Shown: piece after piece, positions 15,318-21,085 of the stretch | How positions within the stretch are numbered: the stretch's first letter is position 1 | Layout of the letters: every line of letters begins with the position of its first letter | IMG/VR virus record: IMGVR_UViG_3300047510_001154 | Location: 1-39,874 of that record | Origin: a virus | Direction: 5' to 3' (one strand) | Length of the DNA: 39,874 nt | Made by a program: the position numbers and the translations under genes | The notes under the pieces: model-generated | What the model was told of the DNA's origin: nothing | The model's input: the letters and a program-made list of their open reading frames with translations, nothing else | The model's database searches: none

Positions 15318-16098
15318 TTATCTTGGGAAACTTGGTCGTCTGGGTAACCAGATGTTCCAGTATGCCGCACTGAGAGGCATCGCTCATAATCGTGGTTATG
15401 ACTTTGGTATTCCTCCTTCGACAGGTGAGGATGAATGGAATGATCATCAATTGTTTCAGGTGTTTGAATTACCTCATCTGAATCCTCAGAACATCAAACT
15501 TCTTGATCGTGGTCATGCTCCTGCGGCAAGAGAAAGATTCTTTGAGTTTGATCAAGAACTCTTTGACAAGTGTCCTAACGATGTTTCTCTTCTTGGATTC
15601 TTCCAGTCGGAAAGATACTTTGTAAACATTAAAGATAGTATCAAAGAGGACTTCACTTTCTTACCAGAGATTAGTGAACCTGTCGATGAGATGGCCAAAG
15701 AATTGAATCATCCAATCTCACTTCATATTCGTCGCACTGACTACTTGACCAACAGTGCCAATCATGCTAATCTGTCTATGGATTATTATAGACAGGCACT
15801 AGAACAGTTTGATGCCACTCGTCAGGTTATCATCTTCTCTGATGATCCTGAATGGTGTAAGCAGCAAGAAATGTTTTCGGATGATCGCTTTATGATTTCC
15901 GAATCTGGTGATAATGCAGTTGACCTTTGCCTGATGACAAAGTGCTCTGGGCATATCATTGCCAACTCTTCCTTCTCTTGGTGGGGTGCATGGCTTGCAG
16001 ACTCTAAGAAAGTTATTGCACCTAGTATTTGGTTTGGCCCAAACAATGCTGACAAGACCACCCGCGATTTGATTCCTGAAAGATGGCATATTATCTGA
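15304..16098 (+). CDS. GT11-family (alpha-1,2-fucosyltransferase-like), copy 2
   Basis: 264 residues from MLAVNYLGKLGRLGNQMFQ. It has all three GT11 blocks: GRLGNQMFQYAALRGIA, LHIRRTDYLTN and NSSFSWWGAWL. Paralogue of the gene at 13651-14496, with RRGD changed to RRTD. ATG 15304 overlaps the preceding gene by 14 bp. Distinct acceptor specificity is likely but unproven. Confidence 0.82.
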   Translation: MLAVNYLGKLGRLGNQMFQYAALRGIAHNRGYDFGIPPSTGEDEWNDHQLFQVFELPHLNPQNIKLLDRGHAPAARERFFEFDQELFDKCPNDVSLLGFFQSERYFVNIKDSIKEDFTFLPEISEPVDEMAKELNHPISLHIRRTDYLTNSANHANLSMDYYRQALEQFDATRQVIIFSDDPEWCKQQEMFSDDRFMISESGDNAVDLCLMTKCSGHIIANSSFSWWGAWLADSKKVIAPSIWFGPNNADKTTRDLIPERWHII

Positions 16099-16901
16099 GC
16101 GAAGAGAAGAATAAGTCTAAGTTTAAACTTGATGGTCTTCCTGAAATCTATTACATCAACCTTGATGATAAGGTTGAGCGTAAAGAATACATGGAAGGCC
16201 AGTTTAAATACTGGGGCATTACAAATTACACTAGGATTTCTGCACAAGATGGTAGGAATGATAGTCTTGCAGACACCCTAGTCGGTGAGTATCCCCCCAA
16301 TGTAACTCATGGTGAGATTGGATGCCTGACTAGTCATCTGAAAGCATTAAAGCATTGGTTAGAGCACGGCACGGGAGATCATCTTCTGGTGATGGAAGAT
16401 GATTGTGATCTTGAAACTGTAAAGCATTGGAAGTTTAAGTGGTCTGACTTTATGTCAATGGCTCCTTATGACTTTGATGTCCTGCAACTTGCAATTATTA
16501 ATCCTGGTATTCTTGCAATTAGAATGCACAAGAGATTTGTAAATGATTTCTCCACTGCATGTTATCTTATTACTCGCCACCATGCCGAGAAGGTTGTACG
16601 TCTTCACTGCGAGGGAGATAAGTATCGTTTAGATCAGAAGATCAAACCAAGAGCCGTTGCTGATGATGCAATCTATAACAGTGGATTGACATTTGCTATT
16701 CCTCTCTTTCTTTATAAGATTGATATGGGATCTGATATTCATGCCGAACACATTGATATGTTCCATAGATCCAGTTATGAAGGTCTTTGGAAGTTCTGGA
16801 AAGAGACCGCTCCCATGATTGATGACTGGAAAGGTATGTTTGATTATGATCCTTTCTACGGACAACTTCCTCCAGAAATGCAAAGAGGCGAGGGCGGTTA
16901 A
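16083..16901 (+). CDS. GT25-family (LPS glycosyltransferase-like) protein, last gene of the glycan operon
   Basis: 272 residues. EIYYINLDDKVERKEYM, HGEIGCLTSHLKALKHWLE and HLLVMEDDCDLE match the Glyco_transf_25 pattern (galactosyltransferase/LgtB-like), with EDDCD as the metal motif. It overlaps the GT11 gene by 16 bp. No terminator hairpin is seen directly after it; a new promoter starts 10 bp downstream. Confidence 0.8.
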   Translation: MAYYLSEEKNKSKFKLDGLPEIYYINLDDKVERKEYMEGQFKYWGITNYTRISAQDGRNDSLADTLVGEYPPNVTHGEIGCLTSHLKALKHWLEHGTGDHLLVMEDDCDLETVKHWKFKWSDFMSMAPYDFDVLQLAIINPGILAIRMHKRFVNDFSTACYLITRHHAEKVVRLHCEGDKYRLDQKIKPRAVADDAIYNSGLTFAIPLFLYKIDMGSDIHAEHIDMFHRSSYEGLWKFWKETAPMIDDWKGMFDYDPFYGQLPPEMQRGEGG

Positions 16902-17056: not shown

Positions 17057-17437
17057 ATGTTTAAATCCGCAATCGCAGCTGTTGCTGCTGCTCCTTTCCT
17101 TGCTTCGGCTGCATTTGCTGGCCCTTATGTTGAAAGCAAGACCACTGCTGCTGGCACTATCACCGATGGTGGTGATTTCCGTGGCGCTCAGACCGAAGTC
17201 CGTGCTGGTTATGAGCAAGCAGTTGGCACCGCTGGTGTGAAAGTTTATGGTGAAGTTGGCCCTGGTTATGAGTGGAACAACGGTGGCACCGATGAGTACG
17301 TGACCGTTGGTGAGATTGGTGTTGCTGCTCCTCTTGCTGATAAAGTGTCTCTGAAAGCCAAAGTGACTGGTGAGTATGGTGGTCGTTCTGAGGTGTTTGA
17401 CCTGGGCGGTGAACTGAAAGTTCGTTACTCTTTCTGA
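17057..17437 (+). CDS. Small secreted, outer-membrane beta-barrel-like protein
   Basis: 126 residues with a clear signal peptide (MFKSAIAAVAAAPFLASAAFA, cut before GPYVES). The mature part alternates polar and hydrophobic residues (VKVYGEVGPGYEW, VSLKAKVTGEY) and ends LKVRYSF, a C-terminal Phe typical of outer-membrane barrel proteins. GAGGT at 17046-17050 is the ribosome binding site. At ~105 mature residues it is small for a closed barrel and may oligomerise. It is probably inserted in the host outer membrane during infection; role unknown. Confidence 0.65.
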   Translation: MFKSAIAAVAAAPFLASAAFAGPYVESKTTAAGTITDGGDFRGAQTEVRAGYEQAVGTAGVKVYGEVGPGYEWNNGGTDEYVTVGEIGVAAPLADKVSLKAKVTGEYGGRSEVFDLGGELKVRYSF

Positions 17438-18118: not shown

Positions 18119-18318
18119 GTTCTGATATGCTAGGCAGGTTCAACACTGCCCTTCAAGAACTCGTTGAGAGTGGTGCCTGGGATCGAGATGTAGAACTAGA
18201 AGTCAAAATCGCTGGCACTCTCAAGAATGATAAGTTTATCGTCATCAAACCTATCAAAGAAAAAATTAATTCTATTCCTAATCCTGAACTGAAACAAAAA
18301 CATGACCCGAGTACCTGA
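18115..18318 (+). CDS. Small hypothetical protein, 67 residues
   Basis: GTG start overlapping the ferredoxin stop (GTGA), with AGGAAGAG just upstream. Amphipathic helix ([15 protein letters not shown]), then a short beta segment ([12 protein letters not shown]). Family unknown; its place between petF and the peroxiredoxin suggests redox or light-stress context only by association. Confidence 0.55.
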
Positions 18319-18838
18319 AGTTACTTTCCACACACGTATCAAAGACATTAGTGTAGAAGGCCCCAACCCATATCGTTGGCAAGATGTAACCACTGCTGAC
18401 TACTTTGCTGGTAAGCGTGTGGTTGTATTCTCGCTTCCTGGGGCATTTACTCCTACCTGTAGTAATTATCAACTCCCTGGATACGATACTCTTTATAGTG
18501 AGTTTGAAGAACTCGGTATTGATGAAGTATATTGTATTTCTGTGAATGATTCCTTTGTTATGAACGCTTGGTTTAAACAGCAAGGAGTTAAAAATGTCAA
18601 ACCCATTCCTGACGGTAGCGGTGAGTTTACTTACGCTATGGGTATGTCTGTCACTAAAGCGAACCTAGGTTTCGGTTTCCGATCCTGGCGTTATGCCATG
18701 GTGGTTAATGATGGAGAGATCGAACAACTTTTCGAGGAGCCTGGTAAGGTGGGTAACTGCCCTGTCGATCCTTATGAAGTGAGTGATCCTGACACTGTAC
18801 TTAATTATCTTAGAAACAACTATTCAAAGGAGAACTAA
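18302..18838 (+). CDS. Peroxiredoxin, Prx5/AhpC-TSA type
   Basis: 178 residues. SLPGAFTPTCSNYQLPGY holds the P-x-x-x-T-x-x-C active site with peroxidatic C53, and RYAMVVNDGEI the conserved Arg region. It reduces hydrogen peroxide or organic peroxides using thiol or glutaredoxin donors and fits with photoprotective hli genes on both sides. It overlaps the upstream gene by 17 bp; the next hli start follows within 2 bp after an AAGGAG site. Confidence 0.9.
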   Translation: MTRVPEVTFHTRIKDISVEGPNPYRWQDVTTADYFAGKRVVVFSLPGAFTPTCSNYQLPGYDTLYSEFEELGIDEVYCISVNDSFVMNAWFKQQGVKNVKPIPDGSGEFTYAMGMSVTKANLGFGFRSWRYAMVVNDGEIEQLFEEPGKVGNCPVDPYEVSDPDTVLNYLRNNYSKEN

Positions 18839-19028: not shown

Positions 19029-19331
19029 ATGATTCTTGCTAGTCTGATGTGCGGAGTCGCAACCTTCTACGGAATGGGCGACGGATTTCATGGTCAACTT
19101 ACTGCAAATGGAGAACGCTTCGATGCTTACCGTTGGACTGCTGCTCACCCTTACCTTCCTATGGGAACTAAAATTAGGGTTACAAACCAAGACAATGGTA
19201 AGCAAGTGATCGTAAGAATTAATGATCGCGGGCCTTATTCTCATGCAGATCTTGATCTGAGTTACGCTGCATTTGCTCATATCGAATCTACTCGAAGGGG
19301 TAATGCCACTGTCTGTTATCGTATAGTCTAA
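19029..19331 (+). CDS. RlpA-like double-psi beta-barrel protein
   Basis: 100 residues. GVATFYGMGDGFHGQLTANG, TAAHPYLPMGTKIRVTNQDN and RINDRGPYSHADLDLSYAAF match the RlpA/DPBB fold, including the Asp of NDRGPY. RlpA proteins cut naked glycan strands or bind peptidoglycan. No SPOR domain and only a weak hydrophobic N-terminus, so export, if any, is unclear. It opens a cell-wall-enzyme block. Confidence 0.78.
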   Translation: MILASLMCGVATFYGMGDGFHGQLTANGERFDAYRWTAAHPYLPMGTKIRVTNQDNGKQVIVRINDRGPYSHADLDLSYAAFAHIESTRRGNATVCYRIV

Positions 19332-19356: not shown

Positions 19357-20058
19357 ATGACTGTAGACTTACACAATTTTTTCAGATTTTATAAACACGA
19401 AAATCCTCAGCACGTTAAAGCAGTGCAGTGGTTAGAAGATAACCTTCCTGCTGAGTATCTTGATGAAGACGCTGAATGGGTTAAGACTTTTAGAAAAGCA
19501 GTAGCAGGAGCTGCTGGCATTACAAATCCTCTCAAGGTTCCTTACTACCCTCAGACAGATAACTACACTAACGCTGAGCGTACTTGCAATTCTTCTTCTT
19601 GTGCAATGTGCCTAGCGTACTTCAAACCAGGCGCACTCCCCGCAGGGCCTAAAGGTGATGATGCTTATGTCAAGGAAGTCTTCAAGATTGGTGACACTAC
19701 TGACCACGCCGTTCAGACGAAAGTTCTGGAGAAGTATGGCGTCAAGTCCCATTTTTCCTACAATCTTACCTTTGCTGATCTTGACAAACAGCTTGCTGCT
19801 GGTAAACCCGTTGTTATCGGTATTCTCCACCGTGGTCCTATTAGTGCTCCTCGTGGCGGTCACATGTGTGTAGTCATCGGTAAGAAGGGTGAAGATTACA
19901 TCGTTAACGATCCTTATGGTGATCTGAACGATGGTTACTCTTCCGATGTACATAATGGTAAGGGTGCTGTTTATAAGAAGTCTGAACTGAAGGCACGTTG
20001 GTGTCCTGGTGGTAGTGATGGTTGGGGACGTATCTTTGACCAAGAACTCCCAAAGTAA
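19357..20058 (+). CDS. C39-like (papain-fold) peptidase; upstream half of a probable frameshift fusion
   Basis: 233 residues in the zero frame. VPYYPQTDNYTNAERTCNSS then SCAMC presents the catalytic Cys (probably C82), GGHMCVVIGKKGE the His (H169), and YIVNDPYGD the Asp (D185): the C39-like peptidase layout (PF13529 type). It would cut peptide cross-links in peptidoglycan or another protein substrate. The last codons CTC CCA AAG TAA contain the slippery heptamer CCCAAAG directly before the stop, and a strong hairpin follows. A -1 slip would extend it through a Pro/Ala-rich linker into a GH24 lysozyme, giving 408 residues. Confidence 0.72.
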   Translation: MTVDLHNFFRFYKHENPQHVKAVQWLEDNLPAEYLDEDAEWVKTFRKAVAGAAGITNPLKVPYYPQTDNYTNAERTCNSSSCAMCLAYFKPGALPAGPKGDDAYVKEVFKIGDTTDHAVQTKVLEKYGVKSHFSYNLTFADLDKQLAAGKPVVIGILHRGPISAPRGGHMCVVIGKKGEDYIVNDPYGDLNDGYSSDVHNGKGAVYKKSELKARWCPGGSDGWGRIFDQELPK

Positions 20059-20089
20059 CTGGCGGTAGCAGTGTTCCTGCTGCTGCCGC
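20049..20089 (+). promoter_or_regulatory. Candidate -1 programmed ribosomal frameshift signal
   Basis: Slippery heptamer C CCA AAG (20049-20055) in frame with the peptidase, the TAA stop immediately after, a 6-nt spacer (20056-20061), then stem GCGGTAGCAG (20062-20071) pairing with CTGCTGCCGC (20080-20089), with one G-T pair and an 8-nt loop. All parts fit standard -1 frameshift geometry. Confidence 0.75.
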
Positions 20090-20582
20090 TCCCACAGGTG
20101 AATCCAAGACTGATCCCAGTGAAGTTCCTGCTGCTGGACTTAAGTTGATTAAAGAATTTGAAGGTTGTAAACTGGAGGCCTATCCTGACCCTCTTTCAGG
20201 AGGGCCCCCAATCACAATCGGATGGGGGTCCACAAGAGATAAAAACGGAAACCCCTTCAAATTGGGAGACAAGATTAGTCAAAATGAGGCAGATTCCTTA
20301 CTCGTGGACGAATGCCGTAAGCACTTTTTACCTTCGCTGCGTAAGATTCCATTTTGGGACGAAATGAGCGATGGACAACGAGGTGCCTTACTTTCTTTTG
20401 CTTATAATCTTGGCGCTGGTTTTTACGGCGGCTCAAATTTCAATACGATTACCAAGAGATTGAAGGAAAAAGATTGGGGTAATGTCCCTGATGCTCTCTT
20501 CCTTTATCGTAATCCTGGTAGTCATGTAGAAGCAGGTCTCGCAAGACGCCGTAAGGCTGAAGGCGAACTTTGGAAGTCTTAG
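20055..20582 (+). CDS. Pro/Ala linker plus GH24 lysozyme; downstream half of the probable fusion
   Basis: 175 codons in the -1 frame. The linker (VTGGSSVPAAAAPTGE... to about 20141) leads into LKLIKEFEGCKLEAYPDP, IGWG, LLSFAYNLGAG and RRRKAEGELW, the GH24 phage lysozyme pattern with catalytic Glu in KEFEG and the following Asp and Thr. The enzyme hydrolyses peptidoglycan glycan strands. No ATG or GTG exists in this frame upstream; the only candidate start is TTG 20145, which lies within the first helix of the domain and lacks a clear Shine-Dalgarno site. Independent translation is therefore doubtful, and a frameshift product is favoured. Confidence 0.75.
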   Translation, partial: VTGGSSVPAAAAPTGESKTDPSEVPAAGLKLIKEFEGCKLEAYPDPLSGGPPITIGWGSTRDKNGNPFKLGDKISQNEADSLLVDECRKHFLPSLRKIPFWDEMSDGQRGALLSFAYNLGAGFYGGSNFNTITKRLKEKDWGNVPDALFLYRNPGSHVEAGLARRRKAEGELWKS

Positions 20583-20593
20583 ATCTAAATAGT

Positions 20594-21085
20594 ATGCACA
20601 TTAATTTTTTAAAGAAAATGCTACCTAAGGTTTCCGAAGGAGCAGACCGCGAAGAAAAAAGAGAATGGTTAAGTGATCTTGTTAGAATTGTGATTCTGAT
20701 TTGGTCTGCAGGCTTGCTCACTGCCTCATATGTGAGACTCCCTGGTGGTCAGAAAGTCATGGACTTTGATCCCACTTTCATCGCTTCTGTCTTCTCTGGA
20801 TCCCTTGCAGGATTCGGTGTAGCTGTTGCTAGCAAAACTGCAATGAACAATGGTGGCAGCGCCTCTGCTCCTGCACTTGATTCTGCACCAGTTTATGCTA
20901 GACCAAAAGAAGAAGAGGAAAGAACGGAACCCGAAGTTCAACCAGTATGGACTGAACCAGAACCAACTCCAGAACCTACCGTTAATTTAGAGCAACGTGT
21001 AGAAGCTTTGGAAGCAAAGGTTGAAACTGGTGAAGAACCACCTTCTGAGGAAGGATTTGTTCAACCCAGAAGAGGAGATCTCTGA
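20594..21085 (+). CDS. Two-helix membrane protein with acidic tail; holin-like candidate
   Basis: 163 residues from MHINFLKKML. Two hydrophobic segments, residues ~29-47 (LVRIVILIWSAGLLTASYV) and ~62-80 (FIASVFSGSLAGFGVAVAS), are followed by a long Pro/Glu-rich tail with a short coiled-coil-like helix (LEQRVEALEAKVE). Membrane topology and position just after a lysozyme gene suggest a holin or lysis accessory protein, but no holin family is recognised. A TCTAAATA sequence, one base off the late octamer, precedes it. Confidence 0.55.
   Translation: MHINFLKKMLPKVSEGADREEKREWLSDLVRIVILIWSAGLLTASYVRLPGGQKVMDFDPTFIASVFSGSLAGFGVAVASKTAMNNGGSASAPALDSAPVYARPKEEEERTEPEVQPVWTEPEPTPEPTVNLEQRVEALEAKVETGEEPPSEEGFVQPRRGDL

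Follow-up and report, generated by a model that had tools for sequence, protein, structure and literature searches.

Programmed -1 ribosomal frameshifting very probably joins a GH24 lysozyme to a C39-like peptidase in cyanophages

Introduction

How can a complete lysozyme be translated from a reading frame that offers it no ordinary start codon? The question is raised by a viral DNA of 39,874 nucleotides (IMG/VR record IMGVR_UViG_3300047510_001154; this whole stretch is called the window below), in which the gene of a C39-like peptidase ends at a TAA while the -1 frame runs past this stop into a GH24 lysozyme domain (Table 1). The original prediction, made from the letters alone, was that a programmed -1 frameshift fuses the two enzymes. 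Our answer is that in the window virus and dozens of relatives including phage S-PM2, one gene very probably gives either the peptidase alone or a peptidase-lysozyme fusion, because some ribosomes slip back by a single base where the peptidase gene ends. What we observe are the signals, their conservation, the complementarity of the hairpin arms and the existence of relatives fused in frame. This comparative evidence supports the prediction, while slippage itself, its efficiency and the roles of the products are inferred from sequence.

Table 1. Features at and around the peptidase-lysozyme junction of the window
Feature	Positions	Strand	Basis
RlpA-like double-psi beta-barrel protein, possible third wall enzyme	19029..19331	+	PF03330 E 2e-23
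C39-like peptidase ORF, zero-frame product (233 aa)	19357..20058	+	PF13529, fold model, invariant residues
N-terminal module, residues 1-46 of the C39 protein	19357..19494	+	tblastn, translation
-1 open frame; predicted to be used from GTA 20055-20057 after the slip to TAG 20580-20582; +175 residues	20040..20582	+	translation
Slippery heptamer C_CCA_AAG	20049..20055	+	sequence; codon invariance; A_AAA_AAG in most relatives
Pro/Ala/Ser-rich linker of the predicted fusion, -1 frame	20055..20135	+	translation
Zero-frame TAA stop, directly 3' of the heptamer	20056..20058	+	sequence
5' arm of putative stimulatory hairpin, GGCGGTAGCAGTG, 5 nt past the heptamer	20061..20073	+	RNAfold; local scan; clade pair counts
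3' arm of putative stimulatory hairpin, TGCTGCTGCCGCT	20078..20090	+	RNAfold; local scan; clade pair counts
GH24 phage lysozyme domain, -1 frame	20151..20561	+	PF00959 E 2e-22, residues 34-170 of the -1 product
DUF6450 protein, hydrophobic segments	20594..21085	+	PF20048 E 3e-26; hydrophobic stretches by eye

The junction in the window

The peptidase frame ends as ...QELPK*, and its last codons CTC-CCA-AAG-TAA place CCCAAAG in the X_XXY_YYZ phase with the stop directly behind it, just as had been predicted; this first observation is confirmed as real. Read in the -1 frame, the junction gives ...PK-VTGGSSVPAAAAPTGESKTDPSEVPAAGLKLIKEFEG..., then the linker and a complete GH24 lysozyme, and no ATG or GTG precedes the domain in this frame of the window. 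The sole start-like codon is a TTG at 20145, on the edge of the domain, and for these reasons an independent lysozyme start was rejected as the main route in the window. A recount (233 + 175) arrives at the 233 and 408 residues proposed for the two products, whose production itself is inferred.

As to the hairpin, a stem downstream of the heptamer is present as claimed, whereas its dimensions had to be revised: RNAfold pairs 20061-20072 with 20079-20090, which makes 12 pairs (13 with a terminal G-U) in place of 10, and the spacer is 5 nt instead of 6. Segment 20049-20110 folds with an energy of -22.5 kcal/mol (z -2.9), and 3 of 200 shuffles folded equally well. A downstream structure at a short spacer is one criterion for programmed frameshifting, and it is met by a hairpin that is predicted and conserved, its stimulatory effect being inferred. 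Upstream, no clear Shine-Dalgarno stimulator comparable to the one in dnaX was seen.

The two enzymes and their neighbours

The peptidase half belongs to Peptidase_C39_2 (PF13529, E 3e-14, 54 bits against a curated cut-off of 24), and its AlphaFold2 model (mean pLDDT 79) matches the C39 peptidase domains of PCAT1, ComA and a Bacillus C39-like protein, C39 domains being the top fold matches, with TM about 0.45-0.5 on the query. A sequence-profile search for solved structures found no match. C77, H169 and D185 are invariant among 20 relatives. The lysozyme half reaches 80 bits against PF00959 (curated cut-off 22.3), and E37, D46 and T55 of the -1 product fit, by eye, the E/D/T pattern of T4 lysozyme. 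Both enzyme activities are inferred from the families and these catalytic residues, and both products are probably peptidoglycan hydrolases for lysis or local opening of the wall. PHROG matches include families annotated as endolysin, and lysis of the host wall is again only inferred, without activity data.

The N-terminal module of about 46 residues also heads stand-alone GH24 lysozymes (DSL-LC02, DSL-LC03 and IMG/VR loci, by tblastn and translation). Therefore each enzyme carries a copy of its own at loci where the two are separate, while at the frameshift loci one copy serves both; its target is inferred to be the wall or the virion. At some loci (L162, L164, L048-L079) the C39 protein and a separate GH24 protein each have the module, which looks like a duplication. 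Other combinations of domains were also encountered (L169 1006-2187, L281 1003-2229, L170 1483-2751). In S-CREM1 GH24 precedes the N-terminal module and C39, in PSS2 a longer protein ends with the C39 domain, and in MA01 this domain is in frame with what appears by eye to be a chitinase-type (GH19-like) domain.

The RlpA-like gene upstream and the DUF6450 gene downstream, whose product could by inference be a membrane partner in lysis, possibly make this neighbourhood a wall-lysis cluster. Also near the junction are an outer-membrane-like beta barrel of cyanophage type (PF24653), a redoxin and a GT25 glycosyltransferase (window positions 17057-17437, 18302-18838 and 16083-16901).

Conservation of the heptamer and of the -1 frame

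Is the arrangement peculiar to one sequence? Viral contigs in IMG/VR were scanned with four queries (the window C39 and GH24 and the C39 of S-PM2 and S-CAM7), annotated phages were added, and junction duplicates among the 283 loci collected were removed before classing. Sixty-eight distinct junctions have a heptamer in phase, GH24 in the -1 frame without exception (68/68) and no start at the stop; 53 carry A_AAA_AAG, 13 C_CCA_AAG and 2 U_UUU_UUU, with the zero-frame stop 0, 3 or 6 nt past the heptamer. The other classes are a heptamer with an ATGA or GTGA overlap (11), ATGA without a heptamer (5), in-frame fusion (10), a separate downstream gene (18) and other kinds of overlap (4), and at 42 loci of the deduplicated set no GH24 was found nearby.

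Heptamers at the C39 stop occur beyond chance: AAAAAAG or CCCAAAG stands there in 75 of 150 C39 ORFs and in none of 1,028 other ORFs at the same loci. C39 proteins without an overlapping -1 GH24 mostly end in ...GRIF(D/T/S/K/A), and those of the frameshift group have only an extra short tail (for instance DVKK, DAKK or DQELPK), inside which the heptamer lies. In the CCCAAAG clade no more than 15% of the degenerate codons for invariant amino acids are themselves invariant; CCA and AAG are invariant nonetheless, and so is CTC wherever that Leu occurs.

The lysozyme frame behaves likewise. Across 65 anchored junctions the linker takes 13 different lengths and the GH24 phase is identical (-1) throughout, and shuffling predicts 26 stops in the 656 linker codons of 38 homologous junctions, where none is found. 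A -1 frame that is continuous from the heptamer, conserved and devoid of its own start is a further criterion, and it is satisfied.

It has to be considered here that the lysozyme might be a separate gene, translated from a rare start codon of its own or by termination and reinitiation at the C39 stop. The 11 relatives that combine a heptamer with ATGA or GTGA and the five with ATGA alone speak for such a route, as do the GTG or TTG codons inside some linkers and the TTG of the window. However, 40 of the 65 junctions lack ATG, GTG and TTG in the lysozyme frame altogether (ATG occurs in 3), the start-like codons that do exist in linkers nearly all lack a Shine-Dalgarno-like motif, the linker is free of stops, and a separate gene would require neither a heptamer nor complementary arms; we leave it only a very slim chance. 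Homologues with a good lysozyme start and no slippery site had been named in advance as what would refute the frameshift. The homologues that do have a good start, an ATGA overlap, mostly have a weak hairpin.

The hairpin among relatives

The median stem score is 26.3 at the junctions versus 12.5 at random positions of the C39 genes, and 93% of the junctions exceed the 95th percentile of that control. For the 53 AAAAAAG junctions, arms taken from the same sequence score 24.6 versus 15.0 for swapped arms, and 0 of 10,000 permutations scored as high as the true pairs; as the sequences are related, such figures are not true probabilities. The 3' arm of this group lies mostly within the codons for the beginning of GH24 (...G-V-E-L-I-K), and the 5' arm tracks it. 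In a family of 17 ungapped sequences, 98.7% of the cells are paired and 4 of the 14 pairs have changed on both sides in a compensatory manner, compared with 30-48% paired if the partner is slid by 1 to 3 columns.

The window's own clade of 13 CCCAAAG junctions is less informative, having only wobble-type changes in the stem and no two-sided covariation, and its stem also pairs at slides of +-3 because of the GCT repeat of the Ala linker, which weakens the pairing test. L030 and L230 show little complementarity in the tested arm regions, with a short local hairpin in L030.

Among the 11 relatives with both heptamer and ATGA or GTGA, most hairpins are weak. Whereas 6 ATGA relatives examined first showed no complementarity of the arms, all 11 together have a weak excess (13.3 versus 11.0), and complete absence of complementarity is therefore not claimed. 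Thus the hairpin goes together with the lack of a lysozyme start, and the heptamer, being kept in the ATGA class, may serve there for more than frameshifting. The check proposed with the original prediction, whether heptamer and stem are conserved at homologous loci, comes out positive, as many homologues keep the heptamer, the zero-frame stop and the hairpin.

Fused relatives and the origin of the signal

In-frame fused homologues, which had also been listed beforehand as something to look for, do exist. Two of them, L042 and L229, differ by one A in the slippery run: with AAAAAAAG they read in a single frame ...FDVKKVENSTP and ...FDIKKVESP, which is the product predicted for the slip, and both sit among AAAAAAG members in the C39 tree. 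The same extra A, turning the frameshift pair into a single-frame fusion, was noted in L042, L045 and L229, and the 5' arm sequence persists in L042.

Could the frameshift then be nothing but a mistake of sequencing or assembly, or a fusion gene that broke recently? The fusions in ACG-2014f and its relatives would suit such a view, but a one-base error, listed beforehand as a possible refutation, is ruled out as a general explanation by the recurrence of the layout in 68 distinct junctions, identically in two records of S-PM2 and in three isolates of S-CAM7, and the lysozyme frame is open and conserved across relatives. We regard this possibility as practically negligible.

In the C39 tree, CCCAAAG forms one supported clade, AAAAAAG makes up most of another, and the TTTTTTT pair (S-CAM7 and L253) lies elsewhere, inside the in-frame clade of ACG-2014f and seven contigs. 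The seven junction states require 17 changes on the tree versus 55 when shuffled (bootstrap values are rough); judged from this tree, the state of the junction is inherited, yet it has changed several times.

Slippage of RNA polymerase on the A6 or T8 run, giving transcripts longer by one base, would produce the same fusion without any ribosomal frameshift. Most relatives do have A6, S-CAM7 has eight T in a row, for which reason polymerase slippage is a fair alternative in that phage, and natural A7 variants do give an in-frame fusion. Bacterial transcript slippage is, however, described for runs of about nine A or T in passages of a frameshifting review (PMC5009743), and the CCCAAAG of the window, kept by a single clade of 13 junctions, contains only A3; a heptamer without a long homopolymer run speaks for a ribosomal route that the whole family shares. 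A hairpin at a short spacer and X_XXY_YYZ phase are, besides, hallmarks of ribosomal slippage. For the family as a whole, transcript slippage appears very unlikely.

We are accordingly left, with high confidence though without expression data, with a putative programmed -1 ribosomal frameshift cassette yielding a 233-residue peptidase and a 408-residue peptidase-lysozyme, most likely by tandem slippage of the type known for dnaX and lambda G/GT. The majority of ribosomes, as we assume, would make the N-terminal module and the C39-like peptidase and terminate at TAA. A fraction would be held up by the hairpin while peptidyl-tRNA(Pro) occupies CCA and tRNA(Lys) occupies AAG, shift back so that the two tRNAs read CCC and AAA, bypass the stop in the -1 frame, and append the Pro/Ala linker and the GH24 lysozyme, so that the two products would share an identical N-terminal module.

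Comparison with known systems

In lambda G/GT, too, ribosomes slip by -1 on a heptamer shortly before the upstream ORF ends, and a short protein is made alongside a fusion with extra C-terminal sequence. Those are tail chaperones, unlike the C39 and GH24 proteins here, and the cyanophage locus has a strong, conserved hairpin; sites in certain tailed phages seemingly work without stimulators (PMC5009743). E. coli dnaX shares the A_AAA_AAG heptamer of most relatives and a stem-loop a few nucleotides downstream. The dnaX frameshift gives the shorter product, whereas the cyanophage slip would give the longer one, with no clear upstream stimulator seen. According to the same passages, A_AAA_AAG shifts far more readily in E. 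coli than do related heptamers of A and U (PMC5009743).

Also described there are phage coat and tail proteins extended by Ig-like domains, optional C-terminal additions made by frameshift and found in frame in relatives (PMC5009743); the cyanophage locus resembles them in both respects and differs in adding a lysozyme to a wall peptidase. The fusion of ACG-2014f (PHROG 3617) has identical domains in the same order, both halves being homologous, but in one reading frame with the fusion as its only product. Lytic loci with several polypeptides are also known from PlyC, phivML3 and Ms6 LysA; as summarised in PMC3111421, these arise from separate genes, from a small protein encoded in an overlap or from a gene embedded in the same frame, none of them by a heptamer-hairpin frameshift.

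For double-stranded DNA phages the frameshifts listed in the review are those of tail chaperones, coat proteins and Ig-like extensions, and no mention of lysozyme or endolysin was found in the portion of it available (PMC5009743). Full-text literature searches, covering titles, abstracts and selected passages, also turned up no comparable frameshift in an endolysin or lysozyme gene, and a closed-access report could have been missed. The cyanophage case would thus be a new use, a phage lysozyme on a wall peptidase, of a known mechanism.

What the junction may mean for cyanophages

Across dozens of distinct sequences, a wall-degrading enzyme would join the tail and capsid proteins among the products of frameshifting in double-stranded DNA phages. 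As the model phage S-PM2 is among the carriers, a direct test is possible. The annotation of the 'lysin' of S-PM2 (S-PM2p154) and S-CAM7 is also corrected, since it is currently short and begins within the lysozyme domain; its true N-terminal part is to be found upstream of that start, within the C39 gene's -1 frame (L163 2274-2492, L167 2445-2717, L277, L278, L279).

It is conceivable, and we put it forward as tentative, falling somewhat short of an even chance, that the efficiency of the slip determines, either constantly or depending on conditions, how much wall peptidase T4-like cyanophages make relative to peptidase-lysozyme, that this ratio is selected for lysis or wall penetration, and that lineages have swapped frameshift, ATGA overlap, in-frame fusion and duplicated N-terminal modules to tune or to abandon it. 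The close relatives that use an ATGA overlap, are fused in frame or keep the genes separate offer a natural experiment on why the fused enzyme should be rationed, in which a single extra A in the slippery run switches one state to another.
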